In this document: positions 34,184 to 61,216 of the stretch, in pieces
Layout: each line of letters begins with the position of its first letter
Numbering within the stretch: the stretch's first letter is position 1
Source: Thermosediminibacter oceani DSM 16646
GTDB taxonomy: Bacteria > Bacillota > Thermosediminibacteria > Thermosediminibacterales > Thermosediminibacteraceae
NCBI RefSeq assembly: GCF_000144645.1
Contig: NC_014377.1
Location: 2,170,001 to 2,234,000 of the forward strand
Reading direction: 5' to 3'
DNA length: 64,000 nucleotides
Notes under the pieces: generated by a model
Database searches by the model: none
Seen by the model: only the letters and a program-made list of their open reading frames with translations
What the model was told of the DNA's origin: nothing
Made by a program: the position numbers and the translations under genes

Positions 34184-35131
34184 TCAATTTTTAAAAGCGA
34201 GATTGAAGTTTTGCTGGATCCTGCTCCAAGCGGCCTGGAACCACTCTACAACTTTGAATCTCACCACTACCCGCTCGTGTTTTGGATTTTGGATGTCATC
34301 TGCGGCCGCCTTTTCATCCAGATTTTGGTTGTTATCTCCAGGCGACTCCTCTGCAAGATTTTGAGTGTTATCTATAGCCGTCACCTCTTCCCGATTTTGG
34401 ATGATAATTCTTTTCGTTTTCCCTTCCCCATTTTGGATGTTTTTTCTGGTTGGCTTGTTTTCTATAACTGGTTCTTTTTCCCGATCTTGGGTACTTTCTG
34501 TGGCCGGTTCGTCTTTTCGATTTTGGGTATTATCTATGGCCGCCATTTCTTCCGGTGTCAAAGTGCTGCTCAGTTTAATCTTTGCCTCTTCCCTGGCAAC
34601 CGCGTGGGTTATATCCACGAAGCAAAGCGGCGGAAACAGCACGCACCACCAGTTCTTGCCTTCCCCTCTTCCTATTATAATACGCAGGGCCTCGTATTCG
34701 CCCGCCGGCAGAGTAATAAATCCGTAAGTCTTCACGGGAAACGGGAACCTGCCGAAAAGCACCCTTACGCTGTGGTCCCTTCCGCTCTTTTTTATCTCCT
34801 TCCTTGCGATTTCCTCTATATCCTTCAGGTGAGCTTTAATATACTCCCTGCTGAGGTCAATATCCTCGACTTTCGAGAGGTCATTCTCAAGGGCCTTTAT
34901 AACCGCATCCCTGACCCTGAGCTTCAGTTCCTGGTCTTCCGGGGAATCGCTGTTGGCTACGACGTGCAGCCTGATTATCTTCGACGAGAGGTCCTCCACA
35001 TCTATCCCTGAAACCGCTTTTTCCCCCTCCAATCTACCTCCGGCGATTCCCGAACCGCCTACGACCGCGGCGAACAGGGCGAGAAGAATTATAGCGGTTG
35101 ATGCTATAACAGTTTTTCTGAAGAGCCCCAT
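34184..35131 (-). CDS. spoIIR: Stage II sporulation protein R with a repeat-rich C-terminal insert
   Basis: 315 residues; SpoIIR is usually about 200-230. N-terminal helix (about 8-28), then the conserved IIRLHVVANSDSPEDQELKLRVRDAV and the WWCVLFPPLCFVD block with its CVLFPPLC core. SpoIIR is secreted by the forespore to trigger SpoIIGA processing of pro-sigma-E. After residue 190 follows a low-complexity stretch of degenerate units like AIDNTQN-x5-EPA, TESTQDREKEPV, AIDNTQNLAEESP, GDNNQNLDEK, before the usual end VRFKVVEWFQ. The unit array is the reason for the extra length. Confidence 0.93.
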   Translation of the reverse strand: MGLFRKTVIASTAIILLALFAAVVGGSGIAGGRLEGEKAVSGIDVEDLSSKIIRLHVVANSDSPEDQELKLRVRDAVIKALENDLSKVEDIDLSREYIKAHLKDIEEIARKEIKKSGRDHSVRVLFGRFPFPVKTYGFITLPAGEYEALRIIIGRGEGKNWWCVLFPPLCFVDITHAVAREEAKIKLSSTLTPEEMAAIDNTQNRKDEPATESTQDREKEPVIENKPTRKNIQNGEGKTKRIIIQNREEVTAIDNTQNLAEESPGDNNQNLDEKAAADDIQNPKHERVVVRFKVVEWFQAAWSRIQQNFNLAFKN

Positions 35132-35179: not shown

Positions 35180-36316
35180 CTATTTGGAAGCACCTATTCC
35201 TCCTATCTTGACTTTTGTTTCAACATTTATTTCGGCTTCGGGGAAAATGTTCTCCCAGTCCTTTTCATACTCTTCCCATACCTCAGGCTTGTATTTGGAA
35301 AGGTACTCGCCGAATCCCAGCAAATCCACCTGGTATTCCTGCTGCAGCTTTTTTATACTTGCTAAGACCAGCTGGTTTATCCTTTCTTCCAGCATTTTTT
35401 CTATTATCTTTAACTTTTCCGGGTCGAGCTCGATCTGATCCGGCGTCTCCGCTATCTCCCCTTTTACTTCCAGTTTTACCCTGAATTTGGGGTAATCGCC
35501 CGCCTCCAGCAGTTCCTTGGCAGTCTTATTATGGATAACCGTGAAGACAACCGGGTATTTGTAGCCCTGGATGTCAATCATAATATCGGCTCCCCTGATT
35601 TCTTCCAGGACAAAGTTGGCGCCCAGAGTCTCGTTTTCTTCCAGCCATCCCACCAGCTTGTATTTTTTTATGACCGCCGCCCCGCCTATCTTAACGTCCG
35701 TCTTCCCCGGCGTCAGCCGCGGCAGGAGGGCGTTACCGTGCATGGAATGGACCTCCTTCATGAATTCGTCTACATCCACCTGTACGAACCTGCCGCATAT
35801 GTCTTGGTTTTCGAAAATGTTTGAGATATAGAGCGCCGGCAGCACCTCGATCTCGTTTTTGAAGTTCATGACATCTTTGGCCTTCCCCCTGACGACGATG
35901 ACCCTGCTTCGCCGGTTGATCTCGGAGTTTCTCTCCAGGAAGTTTACGATTTCCTCAATGCCGTCCCTTGCCAGTTCTTCGCCTATGAGTATTACTCTGG
36001 TGTGCTCGAAAAAAAGCCGCCGGCTGAGGCGCATTGCCACCTGGCGGGCGGCGGCGTGGATGGAATCCGCCACGGTGCTGACGGAAACTATCGGGGAACC
36101 TCCGCCGCCCCCCTGACTGCCCCCCTGGCCGCCCGCAATCTTCCTCACAATCGCAAAAGAGAAGGAGACCAGCATCTGTTCCCCGTCTTCAGCCCTGTCG
36201 ACACCTATCTTGCCCACAAAAAACCGCCTGTCGATATCGATCATGTCCCAGCACCCGGTGGTATAAAAAATGGATAATACGGCGACGGTTATCAAAAAAA
36301 TTTTCTTTAATTTCAT
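35180..36316 (-). CDS. gerAC: Spore germination lipoprotein, Ger(x)C family
   Basis: 378 residues from ATG 36316 (GGGGG upstream; the longer frame lies inside gerAB). Lipoprotein signal with Cys in YTTGCWD, then the Ger(x)C pattern DIDRRFFVGKIGVDRAEDG and the C-terminal HNKTAKELLEAGDY domain. It is the C-subunit of a GerA-type nutrient receptor in the spore inner membrane. A GGQGGSQGGGGG linker near residue 65 is unusual. Overlaps gerAB by 4 nt. Confidence 0.95.
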   Translation of the reverse strand: MKLKKIFLITVAVLSIFYTTGCWDMIDIDRRFFVGKIGVDRAEDGEQMLVSFSFAIVRKIAGGQGGSQGGGGGSPIVSVSTVADSIHAAARQVAMRLSRRLFFEHTRVILIGEELARDGIEEIVNFLERNSEINRRSRVIVVRGKAKDVMNFKNEIEVLPALYISNIFENQDICGRFVQVDVDEFMKEVHSMHGNALLPRLTPGKTDVKIGGAAVIKKYKLVGWLEENETLGANFVLEEIRGADIMIDIQGYKYPVVFTVIHNKTAKELLEAGDYPKFRVKLEVKGEIAETPDQIELDPEKLKIIEKMLEERINQLVLASIKKLQQEYQVDLLGFGEYLSKYKPEVWEEYEKDWENIFPEAEINVETKVKIGGIGASK

Positions 36317-37416
36317 TCTGATTTCCCCCACTTTGCCTTTACAGAACCTGCTATAAGCAGAATAAAGGGTATTATGAAACCGAAACCAATGGAGAGATTC
36401 CCGGCAAATTTGGCCCAGTTTTCCAGCTCCAGCACGTTCTGCGGCATCATGGATAAAAAGTAGATCCACGGAAAAAGCAGCGGAGCGAAAATTTTGAACT
36501 CTTTCGCCTTAAAGATGTTTGCAAAAGTTATCGCGGCGGAAAAGTAATAGGGGCTCAACGTGGTAAATACCATTATAACCCATACGATAATGATGGGTGC
36601 TTCTATCCTCTCCAGAATACCTCCCGGAACCGTTATGCTTCTTAAAACGGCCATGGTCGGCCACAGCAGCCTCCCGGTCTCGTGGACTCCCAGCACGGAT
36701 ACTACAATCACAACTAAATAGAGGTAGAAAGCCGTAACGGTAGCGATGGATACCGCTGCAATTTTGTAAACGTGCCTGGTGGTCTTCAGCCCCTGGCCGG
36801 CGACCATTAACACCTCGAAACCGGCCATGCTGATGGCTGCACTTACGGTCCCGAAAAGTATTTTATCAGGAGGGGTCCTGAAAAAGGGAAGGAGTTCCGA
36901 AAAGTCAACCTTGCTAAAAGTAAAGAGAAAAGCGGCTGCCGCCGTTATTAACCAGATGGGAGTATTTATAACCATGAACCTTACCATGGGTTCCAGGCCG
37001 TGACGGATCAGATAAAACGAAAGCAAAAGCAGGGTTATTATGACGAACTCCCGCGGCGTCGACTCCAACACGAAGTTTTTTAATACTTCGGCGAAGACCC
37101 GGAGCACTACGGCGCAGACGATGACGAAATAAAAGGAGTATAAGGCTCCCACTAGAAAACCTACAGGCCTCCCCAGGACGAAAGAGGTATATTCGATGAA
37201 GGTCTTGCCGTTGAATCGGGTTATAACCGCAGCTATTATCAACGCTGCTATGAGGGCAATCACGCCGCCCAGTATAACCAAAATCCAGCAGTCGGGACCC
37301 GCGGCCTCTGCCAAATCCCCCGGCAGAGTCGTAAGGCTGATTCCCAAGATCGTGTTTATGATAAGGGCTATGGCCTGTCCTGTTGATATCCTATCGTCGT
37401 CCATCAGCATCTTCAT
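36313..37416 (-). CDS. gerAB: Spore germination permease-like protein, GerAB family
   Basis: 367 residues, about ten transmembrane helices, APC-superfamily fold (ISTGQAIALIINTILGISLTTLPG at the start). B-subunits are thought to bind the germinant amino acid. Start is ATG 37416, 5 nt after GAGG; other in-frame ATGs at 37410 and 37404 are possible. It overlaps gerAA by 26 nt, so the three genes are translationally coupled. Confidence 0.95.
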   Translation of the reverse strand: MKMLMDDDRISTGQAIALIINTILGISLTTLPGDLAEAAGPDCWILVILGGVIALIAALIIAAVITRFNGKTFIEYTSFVLGRPVGFLVGALYSFYFVIVCAVVLRVFAEVLKNFVLESTPREFVIITLLLLSFYLIRHGLEPMVRFMVINTPIWLITAAAAFLFTFSKVDFSELLPFFRTPPDKILFGTVSAAISMAGFEVLMVAGQGLKTTRHVYKIAAVSIATVTAFYLYLVVIVVSVLGVHETGRLLWPTMAVLRSITVPGGILERIEAPIIIVWVIMVFTTLSPYYFSAAITFANIFKAKEFKIFAPLLFPWIYFLSMMPQNVLELENWAKFAGNLSIGFGFIIPFILLIAGSVKAKWGKSE

Positions 37417-39010
37417 CACCGCCTCTGCCTTCCTGGTCCTGCCTCAGATCCCGCATCATCTGCCGGTCAAGAGGTTTGGTGTAATCGGGCCTCTCTTTGA
37501 GCGAGGGAAACGGAGGCCTCACGAAGATATCCCTGGCCTTTTTCATTTTAAAGGAGACCAGGGGCGAGAGATAATTTGAGCCGAAGCTCTTGAGCGTTAC
37601 CAGGTGGATGACCAAGCCCAGATATCCAAGAATTATGCCGTACAGGCCAGCTACCGAAGCCAAAAAAAGAAATACGAACGCCAGCAAACGGAATCCCACC
37701 GCTAAACTGAAATTGGGTATCGCAAAGGATGATATGGCGTTTATGGCTAGCAATATTACCATTATGGGGCTCACTATGCCCGCCCTGACGGCAGCTTCTC
37801 CTACTACGAGACCTCCCACGATACCTATCGTCTGGCCGATGGGGCCGGGCAGCCTGATGCCCGCCTCTCTCAGTATTTCCAGGGCAAGCATCATGATGAG
37901 GGCTTCCACGGTAGCGGAAAAGGGCACGCCCTCCCTGGTGGCGCCTATGGACAGGGCCAGGTCGGTGGGCAGCATACCCGGGTGAAAGGCGGTCATAGCC
38001 ACGTAAAGGGCCGGCGCGGTAACGGAAAGAAAAGCAGCGCTCATGCGAAGTATCCTGATAAGGGAAGCTATATACCACCTTTCGTAGTAATCTTCCGGCG
38101 ACTGGAAGAGGCTGAAAAAGGTGGCGGGGGCTATCAGTACGAAGGGGGTGTTGTCGCATATTATGACCACGTTGCCCTCAATCAGGGACGCCGCCGCCAC
38201 GTCAGGCCTTTCCGTCCTCCTGAACTGGGGAAAAAACGAAAGCCAGTTGTCCTCTATCATCTGCTCGATGTAACCGCTCTCCATCACCTTGGAAATGTCT
38301 ATCGAGTTGAGCCTCTTCAGGACTTCCTCGACGATGGAGGGGTTTGCAATTCCTTTGATGTAAAGAACGCCGACGTCGGTCCTGGTGTGCCTTCCCAGCT
38401 TTACGGTCTGGACCTTGAGATTCGGATCCTTTATCCTACGGCGCACCAGAGCCACGTTTACGCGGTAGGTCTCGGTGAAGCCTTCCCGCGGGCCCCTTAT
38501 GACGGCTTCCGTGGCGGGCTCCTGTACAGACCTTTTTTCCCAGCCCCTGGTGTTCAGAATAAGACCCCGGTCTAATTTATCTATAAAAAGGGCGGTGTCG
38601 CCCGACAGTACCGCCAGTACCGCTTCCCCGAAATTGTCCGTTTCCTTAACTTCGGCCACCGTTAGCAGGCCGTCCTTGACGAGCTGAAAAAACTTGTCTC
38701 CAACGCTGTACTCTAAAGGGGCCTGCCTGGCAAAAAGCATGAGCGACTTCATGATTTCCTCGTGCACGACCCTTTTGTCGGCGAGCCCGTCGATGTTGAA
38801 TAGGACCATCCTGTGCTTGAGCCCGCCGGGGTTCCCCACGACGAATTCCCTGGATATAAGGTCGTCGCAGTCGGCGAGGTACTCGTTAAAAATCTTTATA
38901 TTTTCGTCTATGTCTTTATAAAGCTTCCTGCTTTTGTCGGGAGTCGTGTCCCTTTCGAAGAATATCTCGGTTTTTCGCCTTCTAAAAAGCGTATCGAATA
39001 TTTTTCCCAT
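37391..39010 (-). CDS. gerAA: Spore germination receptor protein, GerAA family
   Basis: 539 residues. Large soluble N-terminal domain (about 1-260), then five or six membrane segments with the signature GPIGQTIGIVGGLVVGEAAVRAGIVSP. A-subunits form the channel-like part of the germinant receptor. First gene of the A-B-C operon, ATG 39010 behind GGGAGG. Confidence 0.96.
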   Translation of the reverse strand: MGKIFDTLFRRRKTEIFFERDTTPDKSRKLYKDIDENIKIFNEYLADCDDLISREFVVGNPGGLKHRMVLFNIDGLADKRVVHEEIMKSLMLFARQAPLEYSVGDKFFQLVKDGLLTVAEVKETDNFGEAVLAVLSGDTALFIDKLDRGLILNTRGWEKRSVQEPATEAVIRGPREGFTETYRVNVALVRRRIKDPNLKVQTVKLGRHTRTDVGVLYIKGIANPSIVEEVLKRLNSIDISKVMESGYIEQMIEDNWLSFFPQFRRTERPDVAAASLIEGNVVIICDNTPFVLIAPATFFSLFQSPEDYYERWYIASLIRILRMSAAFLSVTAPALYVAMTAFHPGMLPTDLALSIGATREGVPFSATVEALIMMLALEILREAGIRLPGPIGQTIGIVGGLVVGEAAVRAGIVSPIMVILLAINAISSFAIPNFSLAVGFRLLAFVFLFLASVAGLYGIILGYLGLVIHLVTLKSFGSNYLSPLVSFKMKKARDIFVRPPFPSLKERPDYTKPLDRQMMRDLRQDQEGRGGDEDADGRR

Positions 39011-39251: not shown

Positions 39252-39496
39252 TTCCGATACCCCTTTTCTTCAATTTTCCCGCTCTTGCTTTTTATTTTCC
39301 GCAAAATGCAAGTTTTTATTCTCCAAAGCCCCGTCGGCCGTTAAAAAAGGCACCGATTATCCGCTCCCGGAAGTCCCACCGGAGATCATGCTGCATCAAA
39401 AATGCGGCGGATTCGGCTTCAGTTAACGGGCGATCGGACTCACAAAGGTCCTGTTGGGCCTTCCTGGGTGATTTGTCGCATAAAAATTTAGTTCAT

Positions 39497-39618
39497 TTAT
39501 CCACTTTATCCACAAAGTTATCCACAGGTGTTGATAAGTGGATTGCCCTGTCTTCGGCGAAATACATAAATTCGAGGCATTTATCCCCATTGGGGATAAC
39601 TTATCCACATTAACCACA
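39497..39618. other. DnaA-box cluster
   Basis: Three perfect TTATCCACA boxes (39506-39514, 39518-39526, 39601-39609), TTATCCACT (39497-39505), a TTATCCCCA/TGGGGATAA inverted pair (39581-39599), TTAACCACA (39610-39618) and reverse TGTTGATAA (39529-39537) within 122 bp, all in the gap between the gerA-linked gene and pdxS. dnaA/dnaN are not in the window, so this may be an origin part or a DnaA-titration/regulatory site. The rest of the 39252-39721 gap shows nothing else. Confidence 0.85.
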
Positions 39619-39664
39619 GTCTTTTGTGAATTGTGACTCGAGCCTTAATACCGGGGTTTTGGGA

Positions 39665-39694
39665 CAAAAAAATACCGCCCTCAATTGCGGCGGT
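39665..39694 (-). terminator. Terminator of pdxS
   Basis: ACCGCC (39674-39679) and GGCGGT (39689-39694); the minus-strand RNA continues ATTTTTTTG. Confidence 0.85.
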
Positions 39695-39721
39695 CAAAAC
39701 TTAATGCATTCTTTCCTCATA

Positions 39722-40591
39722 CTACCACCCGCGCTCGGCATAGCGATCCGTGAGCCTTTCTATCTCCAGGCCGGGCATGGCTTCCCCCAGGTCCTCGGAA
39801 ACTTCGGCCAGCACTTCGGGGTCGTCGTAGTGGGCCACCGCCTTTACTATGGCCTTAGCCCTTTTGGCCGGATTTTCGGACTTGAAAATCCCCGACCCCA
39901 CGAAAACTCCGTCGCACCCGAGCTGCATCAGCAGGGCCGCATCGGCGGGCGTGGCCACTCCTCCCGCGGCAAAATTTACAACGGGCAGCCGGCCGTGCTC
40001 GGCCACGTAGAGCACCAGTTCGTAAGGTGCTCCCATCTCCTTGGCGGCAGTAATCAGTTCTTCCCGCGGCATGTTCTGGAGCTTCCTTATCTCACCCATG
40101 ATCGTCCGTATGTGGCGCACCGCCTCCACCACGTTGCCGGTGCCCGCCTCGCCCTTGGTCCTAATCATGGATGCTCCTTCCGCTATACGGCGCAGGGCTT
40201 CTCCCAGACTTCTGGCACCGCAGACGAAAGGCACTTTGAATTTTTTCTTGTCTATATGGCAGAACTCGTCGGCGGGCGTCAACACCTCACTCTCATCGAT
40301 GAAGTCCACTCCCAGCGCCTCCAGGATCTGGGCCTCCACAAAATGCCCGATCCGGCACTTGGCCATGACCGGAATGCTCACCGCCTGCTTTATGGCTTTT
40401 ATCACCTTGGGGTCGGACATGCGCGCCACACCGCCCTGTTTCCGTATATCCGCCGGCACCCTCTCCAGAGCCATGACTGCTACGGCTCCGGCTTCTTCAG
40501 CAATTCTGGCCTGCTCGGGCGTGGTGACGTCCATTATAACCCCGCCCTTTAGCATTTCCGCAAGGTTTTTGTTGTTTTTTTCCCGTGACAT
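39722..40591 (-). CDS. pdxS: Pyridoxal 5'-phosphate synthase, PdxS subunit
   Basis: 289 residues, TIM barrel: MKGGVIMDV-type start ([23 protein letters not shown]), Lys in [14 protein letters not shown] and the second active-site Lys in [16 protein letters not shown]. It joins ribose 5-phosphate, glyceraldehyde 3-phosphate and ammonia. The glutaminase partner PdxT, usually the next gene, is absent: pdxS ends in a terminator. Divergent from a pdxR-like regulator. Confidence 0.97.
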
Positions 40592-57709: not shown

Positions 57710-57864
57710 TGTTTATTGCATAATTAAAATGGACAGAGTTGCAAAATAAAATCCCCACTTTTGCAACTCAAAAATCCCCAAATTTGCAAAGGTCATTGCA
57801 GGCACCCCTAAAAACCTTTACCCTTGTAGTTAGGGAAATCTTAACTGCAAGGGAGGATTGGAGG

Positions 57865-59388
57865 ATGCTCACAATGACCCATATTGATAATATCAGAAAA
57901 GCGTTCTTTATGAAAGGGCAAAATATCAGCGAGATAGCCCGGGAATTCCAAAAAGACCGAAAAACTATACGCAAGTATATTTATCAAGAAGACTGGAACA
58001 CCAGGGTTAAAGTTGAAGAAGTTAAACATACCTTCCCAAAACTCGACCCTTTCAAGGCGGATATAGATCAGTGGCTTGAAGAAGATAAAAAAGCTCGCAA
58101 AAAGCAGAGGCATACCGCCAAAAGGATTTATGACAGGCTCTGTGAAAAATACCAAGATAAGTTTAACTGTTCTTACCGCACCGTAGCAGGCTACGTAGCC
58201 ATGAGAAAAAAAGAATTGTACCAGGACAACTCATGTCGTCTGCCGCTGGAACATATCCCGGGTGAAGCGCAGGTGGATTTCGGTGAGGCAGACTTTTACG
58301 AAAACGGGACGCTGCATCACGGATTTTATCTGAACCTGTCGTTTCCCTACAGTAACGTAGGATATACCCAGCTTTTCAAGGGAGAAAACCAGGAATGCCT
58401 GTTTCAGGGACTTAAGGACATATTTGAACACTTGGGGGGAGTACCCCGTAAGCTATGGTTTGATAACGCCAGCACTATCGTGAAACTCTCGAAAAATGGA
58501 GAGCGCAAACTAACCGACGCCTTCCTGAGGTTCAAGCAGCACTATGGTTTTGAAGCGGTATTCTGTAACCCTGCTTCCGGCCATGAAAAGGGTAATGTGG
58601 AAAACAAGGTGGGATACCACCGGCGCAACTTCCTTGTCCCGGTCCCCAGGTTTGAAAAGCTGGAGGATTTTAACCGCGAACTTTTACGATTGTGCGACCG
58701 GGACATGCACCGCGAACACTACCGGAAGGAGGCATCCATAGCCGAACTTTTTAATGAAGACCGTAAGGCTCTGCTTGAGCTGCCTACCGTTCCTTACGAG
58801 GTAGCCGGTTACATAACAGTCAAAACCAACGCCTACGCCAAATTCAGCTTGAACGGTGGAAAGCACCTATACTCTACCGCCCCCAAATACGCCAACAGCC
58901 GGGTGCTTGTAAAGATAACAGCCCATGAGGTCATACCGCTGGATGAGAGCCACCGGGAAATCGTGCGCCACCGGCGGCTTTACGGGGACAACAAGCAAGA
59001 AAGCATGGACTGGCTGCCATATCTTACCCAGCTTTCCCGCTGTCCGGGAGCCCTTAAGTATTCGGGAATATACAGCATGCTGCCGGACCCACTCCGGGAA
59101 TACCTCGACGGCTTAAGCAAAAGTGAGCGCGGCAAAGCGCTCAAGGCTTTGGCTGTGCTTTGTACCAAAAGCAGTTTTGAACAGGCTGTGAACGCTGTAG
59201 CCGAGGCTCTCCTTTACGGAGTGCAGGATTTAGACAGCCTCGTAGCCATCCATAACAGGATAACGGGTATAACCCCGCAGTTGGAGCCGGTAAAGATTCC
59301 GGAAGGGGTTCCTGAACTCACTGCATTCCGCTTCAATGCAGAAGACTATGACAAAGCCTTTCTGAAAGGCGGTGCCAATTTATGCTGA
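57865..59388 (+). CDS. istA: IS21-family transposase IstA
   Basis: 507 residues from ATG 57865 (GGGAGG 8 nt upstream; the longer frame runs through the IS end repeats). N-terminal HTH (GQNISEIAREFQKDRKTIRKYI), DDE core with EAQVDFGEADFY, KLWFDNAST and ...ASGHEKGNVENKVGYHRRN (glutamate), and a C-terminal beta-barrel domain. Appears intact and overlaps istB by 7 nt. Confidence 0.96.
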   Translation: MLTMTHIDNIRKAFFMKGQNISEIAREFQKDRKTIRKYIYQEDWNTRVKVEEVKHTFPKLDPFKADIDQWLEEDKKARKKQRHTAKRIYDRLCEKYQDKFNCSYRTVAGYVAMRKKELYQDNSCRLPLEHIPGEAQVDFGEADFYENGTLHHGFYLNLSFPYSNVGYTQLFKGENQECLFQGLKDIFEHLGGVPRKLWFDNASTIVKLSKNGERKLTDAFLRFKQHYGFEAVFCNPASGHEKGNVENKVGYHRRNFLVPVPRFEKLEDFNRELLRLCDRDMHREHYRKEASIAELFNEDRKALLELPTVPYEVAGYITVKTNAYAKFSLNGGKHLYSTAPKYANSRVLVKITAHEVIPLDESHREIVRHRRLYGDNKQESMDWLPYLTQLSRCPGALKYSGIYSMLPDPLREYLDGLSKSERGKALKALAVLCTKSSFEQAVNAVAEALLYGVQDLDSLVAIHNRITGITPQLEPVKIPEGVPELTAFRFNAEDYDKAFLKGGANLC

Positions 59389-60113
59389 AGGACGAAATCG
59401 CCGCCTGCTGTAAAGCATTAAAACTCAGCCGCAATCTAGTGGAAAACTGCGACAAGATCGAGGCTCAAAGCCATGAAGAATACCTGCTGAAGCTGCTAAG
59501 ATTAGAACTGGAGCACAGAGACGCAAGTCGAAAGGACAGGCTTTTGAAAAATGCGGGCTTTTACACGATAAAGACCTTTGCCGGCTACATATTCGATGAA
59601 ATCAAACTCCCGCAGGGGCTTACACCGCAGGACCTAAAAGATTGCAAATTTCTCGAAGAAAAGAAAAACCTGATCCTTTACGGCAACGTGGGAACCGGCA
59701 AAACCCATCTTGCCACCGCCATCGGTGTGGAGGCCTGTAAAAAAGGCTACAACGTAAAGTTTTTCCGCACTGCAGCGCTGGTAAACCGGCTGGTGGAAGC
59801 CCGGAAGGGAGGTGAACTTTCCGGGTTACTGAAACAGCTTTCCAAACCAGATCTTCTGATCTGCGACGAATGGGGCTATGTTCCTTTGGACCGCGAAGGA
59901 GCGCAGCTACTTTTTCAGGTGATTTCGGACTGCTATGAACGTCGCAGTGTAGTAATTACCACTAACCTGGAATTCAGCCGCTGGGCGAGCATTTTCTACG
60001 ATGAGCAGATGACAGCAGCAATGATTGACCGGCTAATACACCACAGTTACCTATTGATCTTTGATGGTCAAAGCTACCGGATGAGGCAATCACTCATGAG
60101 GCAATTAAGTTAA
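59382..60113 (+). CDS. istB: IS21-family helper ATPase IstB
   Basis: 243 residues, AAA+ (DnaA/DnaC-like): Walker A GNVGTGKTHLA, Walker B LLICDEWGYVP, sensor ITTNLEFSRW, arginine finger MIDRLIHHS. IstB selects target DNA and remodels it for IstA. Intact. Confidence 0.97.
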   Translation: MLKDEIAACCKALKLSRNLVENCDKIEAQSHEEYLLKLLRLELEHRDASRKDRLLKNAGFYTIKTFAGYIFDEIKLPQGLTPQDLKDCKFLEEKKNLILYGNVGTGKTHLATAIGVEACKKGYNVKFFRTAALVNRLVEARKGGELSGLLKQLSKPDLLICDEWGYVPLDREGAQLLFQVISDCYERRSVVITTNLEFSRWASIFYDEQMTAAMIDRLIHHSYLLIFDGQSYRMRQSLMRQLS

Positions 60114-60184
60114 CATAAAAATTCCCCACCGGTGCCTGGGGAAAAACCTTTGCAAAAATGGGGAATTTCCTCTTGCAAAAAACA

Positions 60185-61216
60185 GTATTTATCGATGCTA
60201 CTCACATAAAAGCCAGTGCCAATAAGAATAAATATATCGAGAAAGTCGCTAAGCAACGGACTCAAAAATATAAGAAAGAACTTTTAAAAGAAATCAACGC
60301 CGAACGGGAAGCAAACGGTAAAAAGCCCTTTGAAGAAGAAGATGATGATGACGATAACAACAAAGGAGAAAATAGCTCTAAAAAAGTCAGGGTAAGCACC
60401 ACAGATCCTGAAAGTGGGATGTTTCAAAAAGGGGAAAAAGAGCGCTGCTTTGCCTACACAGCTTCTGTAGCCTGTGACCGGAACAACTTTGTCCTTGGTG
60501 TCAAAATAGCACCTGGAAATGTTCATGACAGCCAGGTATTCTCCGATTTATTTCAAGAAGTAAACGATAAATTTTCTAAAATAGAGGCGGTAGTGGTTGA
60601 TGCAGGCTACAAAACCCCCGGGATATGCAGAGAAATCATTGAGGCAGGAGCGCTTCCCGTTATGCCCTACAAGAGGCCGATGACCAAAGATGGCTACTTT
60701 AAAAAACGCGAATACGTCTATGACGAATATTATGATTGTTACATATGCCCCAACAACCAAATATTAGAATACAGCACCACCAACCGGGCGGGATACCGGG
60801 AATATAGGAGCAACCCCCAAATATGCTGTAAATGTCCCATGCGCCTACAGTGCACCAAAAGTAAAAATTACACAAAAATCATAACTCGGCATATATGGGA
60901 GCATTACATAGAAATAGCGGAAGATATAAGACACACCCAATGGGGTAAAGAACTATACAAAATGCGCGGCCAGACCATCGAGCGGGTATTTGCCGATGCG
61001 AAGGAAAAGCATGGCATGCGCTATACAAATCTACGAGGCTTGAGGAAAGTTGGACATTACCTCACGCTTCTTTTCGCATGCATGAATTTAAAAAAGCTGG
61101 CTTTATGGAAGAAAAGACGGGGAACGTTTCCGCCAACAGTCCCCGCTTTACATTCGTTTTTCTTAAAAATTTTCTTCGCCTTCAACAAAAAGCCGCTTTT
61201 AGGTTATGCATCCTAA
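60185..61216 (+). pseudogene. IS1182 transposase, C-terminal part
   Basis: Resumes VFIDATHIKASANKNKYIE right after the IS21 element, with the first catalytic Asp in FIDATHIKA, the second in VVVDAGYKTPG and the Glu in QTIERVFADAKEKHGMRY; a Cys-rich insert (CPNNQ ... CCKCPMRLQC) lies between. The K/D/E-rich stretch EEEDDDDDNNKGENS near the start is a normal linker in this family. Split by IS21, so non-functional as it stands. Confidence 0.93.

Follow-up and report, generated by a model that had tools for sequence, protein, structure and literature searches.

A conserved DnaA-box cluster near oriC of Thermosediminibacter oceani, probably a control site for chromosome copying separate from the origin

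The genome of Thermosediminibacter oceani DSM 16646 consists of a single contig of 2,280,035 bp, and the window analysed here is the 64-kb stretch G000:C1:2170001-2234000. In this window, an intergenic region between pdxS and the spore germination genes gerA-gerB-gerC, which are preceded by a small ORF near 39255, contains a 122-bp cluster of DnaA boxes that is referred to as element A. The features of the locus are as follows (window positions):

34184..35131, minus strand: spoIIR, 4.4 kb from element A (HMM)
35180..39010, minus strand: gerA-gerB-gerC, spore germination genes, left neighbours (HMM)
39497..39618, plus strand: element A as a whole, oriC-proximal DnaA-box cluster (motif scan, conservation, single copy in 22/22 genomes of the order)
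39497..39505, plus strand: outer box TTATCCACT, one mismatch; retained in genomes of its own family, degenerate in those of the other
39506..39514, plus strand: box 1, TTATCCACA; unchanged across all 20 genomes of the alignment
39518..39526, plus strand: box 2, TTATNCACA, in this genome TTATCCACA; 3 bp past box 1 in every aligned genome
39529..39537, minus strand: box 3, inverted, TTATCAACA (TGTTRATAA on the plus strand); 2 bp past box 2 in every aligned genome
39538..39580, no strand: spacer, 41-43 bp long in 20/20, its sequence largely unconserved apart from a degenerate C-WTGTCC motif in most genomes
39581..39599, no strand: palindrome TTATCCCCA-T-TGGGGATAA, formed by a pair of weak boxes in opposite orientation with 1 bp between them, TTATCCCCA at 39581 (plus) and 39591 (minus)
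39601..39609, plus strand: box 4, TTATCCACA; 1 bp past the palindrome in every aligned genome
39610..39618, plus strand: terminal box TTAACCACA; in other genera TTATCCACA or an inverted box
39666..39695, minus strand: GC-rich hairpin with a T-run, 3' of pdxS and outside element A, a terminator as read by eye
39722..40591, minus strand: pdxS, right neighbour of element A (HMM)

A motif scan of 39497-39618 identified eight DnaA boxes, three of them perfect and five with one mismatch, and recovered every motif that a sequence-only reading of this DNA had placed there. The only three perfect TTATCCACA boxes of the whole window all lie inside this stretch, as do eight of the 25 sites in the window with at most one mismatch to TTATCCACA. 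In 150 dinucleotide shuffles of the window, the densest 122-bp stretch never held more than two boxes with up to one mismatch (observed, eight) or more than one perfect box (observed, three), which bears out the earlier claim that the cluster exceeds chance. It is also non-coding as proposed, with the end of pdxS at 39722 on one side and the start of the small ORF on the other, and HMM searches confirmed that PdxS, RlmH and YycI are encoded in the window. The distance from rlmH to element A is 13.7 kb.

GerA of this genome is 92% identical to GerA of T. litoriperuensis, the nearest named relative. In that species, pdxT sits between the element and pdxS, corresponding to window positions 39619-39721; pdxS is intact in T. 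oceani. No PdxT passed the family cut-off of 105 bits across the whole genome, the best match reaching 22 bits, and the PLP synthase of T. oceani would accordingly be without a glutaminase subunit. Elsewhere in the window (57739-61216), insertion-sequence genes encode an IstB-type ATPase and transposases. IstB-like copies occur at many sites of the genome and give false DnaA matches; the one extra DnaA-like match that was examined proved to be an IstB transposition ATPase.

When 458 bp comprising the cluster and its flanks were used as a BLASTN query, matches outside the genus were almost confined to the cluster. Aligned across 20 genomes of two families, the element shows a common layout, consisting of box 1 TTATCCACA, 3 bp, box 2 TTATNCACA, 2 bp, inverted box 3 TGTTRATAA, the spacer, the palindrome TTNTCCCCA-W-TGGGGATAA, 1 bp, box 4, and a variable terminal box. 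The palindrome has two changes in one of these genomes. The short gaps of 3, 2 and 1 bp are invariant and the spacer measures 41-43 bp in all 20 genomes despite its diverged sequence, which argues for selection on the geometry. A sequence-only model of element A (R1) found exactly one strong copy in each of 22/22 genomes of the order, at 86-109 bits; in T. oceani the element scored 103 bits and the next best site 24. Outside the order, a search of the remaining class genomes and of about 290 from the phylum detected nothing comparable (best match, 36.6 bits), and as many of these weaker matches adjoin dnaA, they are regarded as ordinary box arrays. Element and dnaA lie on one contig in six genomes, in all of which the element is found upstream, oriented like dnaA, at 70.5 kb (this genome), 63.5 kb (G001), 67.7 kb (G005), 113.5 kb (G009), 176.0 kb (G011) and 119.5 kb (G012). 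Conservation in sister species, which had been suggested as a check, thus extends to sequence, spacing, orientation and, in the six genomes that allow placement, side of oriC.

This conservation contradicts the notion of a functionless box cluster that arose by chance or was carried in by a mobile element. Insertion-sequence copies are indeed common in the genome, but the element occurs as a single copy with invariant spacing in every genome of the order, so that we regard such an origin as extremely improbable. A plasmid or phage origin was likewise rejected, as no plasmid match was found and two phage matches, 32-44 bases long, cover the box triad only, which is likeness at the level of boxes. 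A structured RNA was rejected as well, the best Rfam match reaching 15.6 bits with a cut-off of 37.

The sequence-only reading had considered that the cluster could be part of oriC or a secondary origin. In T. oceani, dnaA is located at 126-1439, and the dnaA-dnaN gap contains boxes at 1569, 1599, 1612 and 1620, followed by the DnaA-trio run CTACTACTACTGCTA. GC skew, sampled from stretches of the genome, is mostly negative to the left of dnaA and positive to the right. As dnaA, the trio run and the skew switch coincide there, the dnaA-dnaN gap is oriC. Element A ends 70.5 kb upstream of dnaA, equivalent to 3.1% of the genome and about 6% along the left replication arm, and the skew is negative on either side of it. 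It is therefore near oriC on the chromosome, as expected for a cluster of the B. subtilis type, and the idea that it is part of oriC is refuted. A role as secondary or back-up origin could be read from the dense boxes, including a triad that resembles those of some oriCs. However, a trio motif was present in 0/18 element A regions, taken with 150 bp on each side of the element, whereas 14/19 dnaA loci were positive with the same regular expression, (CT[AG])3+, which misses diverged trios. Together with the skew, which switches at dnaA, this makes a second origin very unlikely.

The genes around the element change from genome to genome. In T. litoriperuensis, it is flanked by pdxT/pdxS and a giant S-layer-like gene, whereas neighbours elsewhere include ilvD (G002, G012), a polysaccharide deacetylase gene (G005), a flavoprotein gene (G013) and nucleotidyltransferase genes (G009, G021). 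These differences bear on the possibility that element A is a DnaA-controlled promoter region of a neighbour, namely the gerA operon or the small ORF in T. oceani and, among relatives, the giant S-layer-like gene. In B. subtilis, genes close to several of the clusters are repressed or activated by DnaA (PMC4447404; PMC8203912), and in T. oceani and several relatives the gene on the left starts about 200-330 bp away, reading outward. However, the identity of this gene differs between genomes. Moreover, convergent genes, one of them encoding a DUF711 protein, flank the element in G011, G014, G018 and G020 (in G011, the DUF711 gene is on the left and an SLH-domain gene on the right), so that no start faces away from it. 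In T. oceani, the element has remained intact although pdxT and the giant S-layer-like gene are gone from the locus, which speaks against a promoter role for one gene and favours the view that the element itself is under selection. A promoter function is therefore considered unlikely.

Pairs of perfect or near-perfect boxes within 30 bp are rare, and only two places in this genome have them, element A and a second cluster at G000:C1:1901471-1901598 (minus strand), located between rimI and tsaD, whose 3' ends converge. Conserved copies of the second cluster score 90-109 bits in 12 genomes, and weaker relatives occur at tsaD elsewhere in the class as well as in Caldalkalibacillus. By position, the second cluster corresponds to the gcp/ydiF DnaA region of B. 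subtilis, of which counterparts also exist in other Firmicutes genomes. The 3' end of B. subtilis gcp (tsaD) carries a cluster of 10 sites to which DnaA binds in vitro and in vivo (PMC4447404). Since both clusters share this gene, clusters recognized from such sequence evidence match, in one case, a proven DnaA-bound region. One orthologue, in G016, has TATCCACA where the others read TATCCCCA, so that TATCCCCA may itself represent a weak DnaA box. Several further box groups were noticed. A weaker one at G000:C1:36262-36310 has similar groups at G014:C33:8202, G005:C2:168160 and G003:C29:7848; wherever its location could be established, it is on the right arm, and in several genomes of the order it is beside what seems to be the same gene, CAP/SCP-type by eye. 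A further [+]3bp[+]2bp[-] triad, more degenerate, is found 34 kb upstream of dnaA (G000:C1:2245939-2245970), and in Fervidicola three perfect DnaA boxes arranged in tandem, 3 bp apart (G004:C13:49726-49757), occupy a place at which a pattern search found none in relatives.

The explanation that we favour, and hold to be likely though well short of certain, is that element A constitutes a regulatory locus at which DnaA binds the chromosome, in the form of a DnaA-box cluster close to oriC but separate from it. Rather than being an origin, it would probably be a separate control site that helps to time chromosome copying. A titration or timing site like the clusters of B. subtilis had been among the earlier suggestions, and it gains support from the order-wide sequence, spacing, side and orientation and from the second cluster at tsaD. 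Briefly, DnaA would load on the tandem boxes at their 3-bp interval, and the inverted box 3 would cap the loaded protein. The spacer of roughly four turns may then be bridged to the second group, comprising the palindrome and tandem boxes, resulting in one defined nucleoprotein complex. Owing to its position about 6% along the arm, the element would be duplicated soon after initiation. This early duplication could double the capacity for holding DnaA, limit free DnaA and restrain immediate re-initiation, so that the predicted effect on timing is a negative one. As simple titration requires no fixed spacing and the geometry is nevertheless invariant, something more specific than titration is suggested. 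In the palindrome, the half-site TTATCCCCA departs from the DnaA consensus TTWTNCACA and may be the target of another protein.

The fixed geometry, which exceeds the needs of simple titration, also leaves room for a DnaA nucleotide-switch element, in which a fixed arrangement of bound DnaA would bring about either exchange of ADP for ATP, as at DARS, or hydrolysis of ATP, as at datA. In E. coli K-12, DARS1 and DARS2, which we take to sit at bioD-uvrB and rppH-mutH, respectively, have boxes at + 208, - 222 and - 234 of L210 and at + 1136, - 1150 and - 1162 of L208, as read from the genome. When reversed, both cores read [+]3bp[+]5bp[-], and the left triad of element A reads [+]3bp[+]2bp[-]. Thus, three boxes, two in tandem at 3 bp and one opposed, are shared in order and orientation, but the opposed gap is 2 bp instead of 5 bp in 20/20 genomes. 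In addition, element A has a second half with a palindrome and is far closer to oriC than DARS1 and DARS2. It resembles datA in being non-coding and multi-box with conserved spacing and distance from oriC, but datA needs an IHF site and its box order and spacing differ. The E. coli elements, too, keep their spacing and their location with respect to oriC (PMC4585315). Intervals of 2-3 bp favour head-to-tail assembly of DnaA, and the opposed DARS boxes I and II support a head-to-head pair of ADP-DnaA (PMC8682772). Against a nucleotide switch, triads of the same type occur at oriC of other clostridia and are hence unspecific to reactivation, so that likeness to DARS is by itself no proof of DARS activity. 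Moreover, an unsystematic look at element A noticed no IHF or Fis site, and datA and DARS are reported to be absent from B. subtilis (PMC13220808; PMC5295017). On balance, a nucleotide-switch role is doubtful, if the least improbable of the alternatives. Somewhat less probable still is a specific form of it, in which element A would be the functional equivalent, in a Firmicute, of DARS or datA, with a fixed-geometry complex that changes the nucleotide state of DnaA, perhaps opposing the tandem-array cluster at tsaD. The B. subtilis positional counterpart of the latter prefers ATP-DnaA 16-fold. If true, a Firmicute lineage would possess DNA elements of the nucleotide-switch kind, which B. subtilis is reported to lack.

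Within the papers searched on this genus and DnaA, no description of element A was found. Among known systems, Firmicute oriCs in the dnaA-dnaN intergenic region have dense DnaA boxes in common with it, and the triad arrangement recurs at some of them, but element A has no trio motif, is not next to dnaA and shows no skew switch. A search of Bacillus-type genomes yielded nothing that could be aligned with element A and would make the yydA (rlmH) or the ywlC/spoIIR cluster its counterpart, and no orthologue emerged in B. subtilis. The closeness of element A to spoIIR, which in Caldalkalibacillus adjoins a threonylcarbamoyl-AMP synthase (ywlC-type) cluster, is no more than suggestive. The B. subtilis clusters in the gcp/ydiF, ywlC, yydA, ywcI/vpr, sda and trmE regions are likewise composed of several boxes, intergenic and away from oriC. 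According to reviews, they act, if at all, by holding DnaA, and deletion of the six leads to early initiation (PMC5295017; PMC13220808), which implies that in B. subtilis they limit free DnaA once initiation has occurred. Element A differs from the B. subtilis clusters in having one architecture with fixed spacing through two families. Spacing, orientation, side of oriC and copy number kept throughout the order amid changing neighbours suggest a specific DnaA complex rather than a loose sink, and element A offers a short, well-defined DNA for telling titration from nucleotide switching in vitro.
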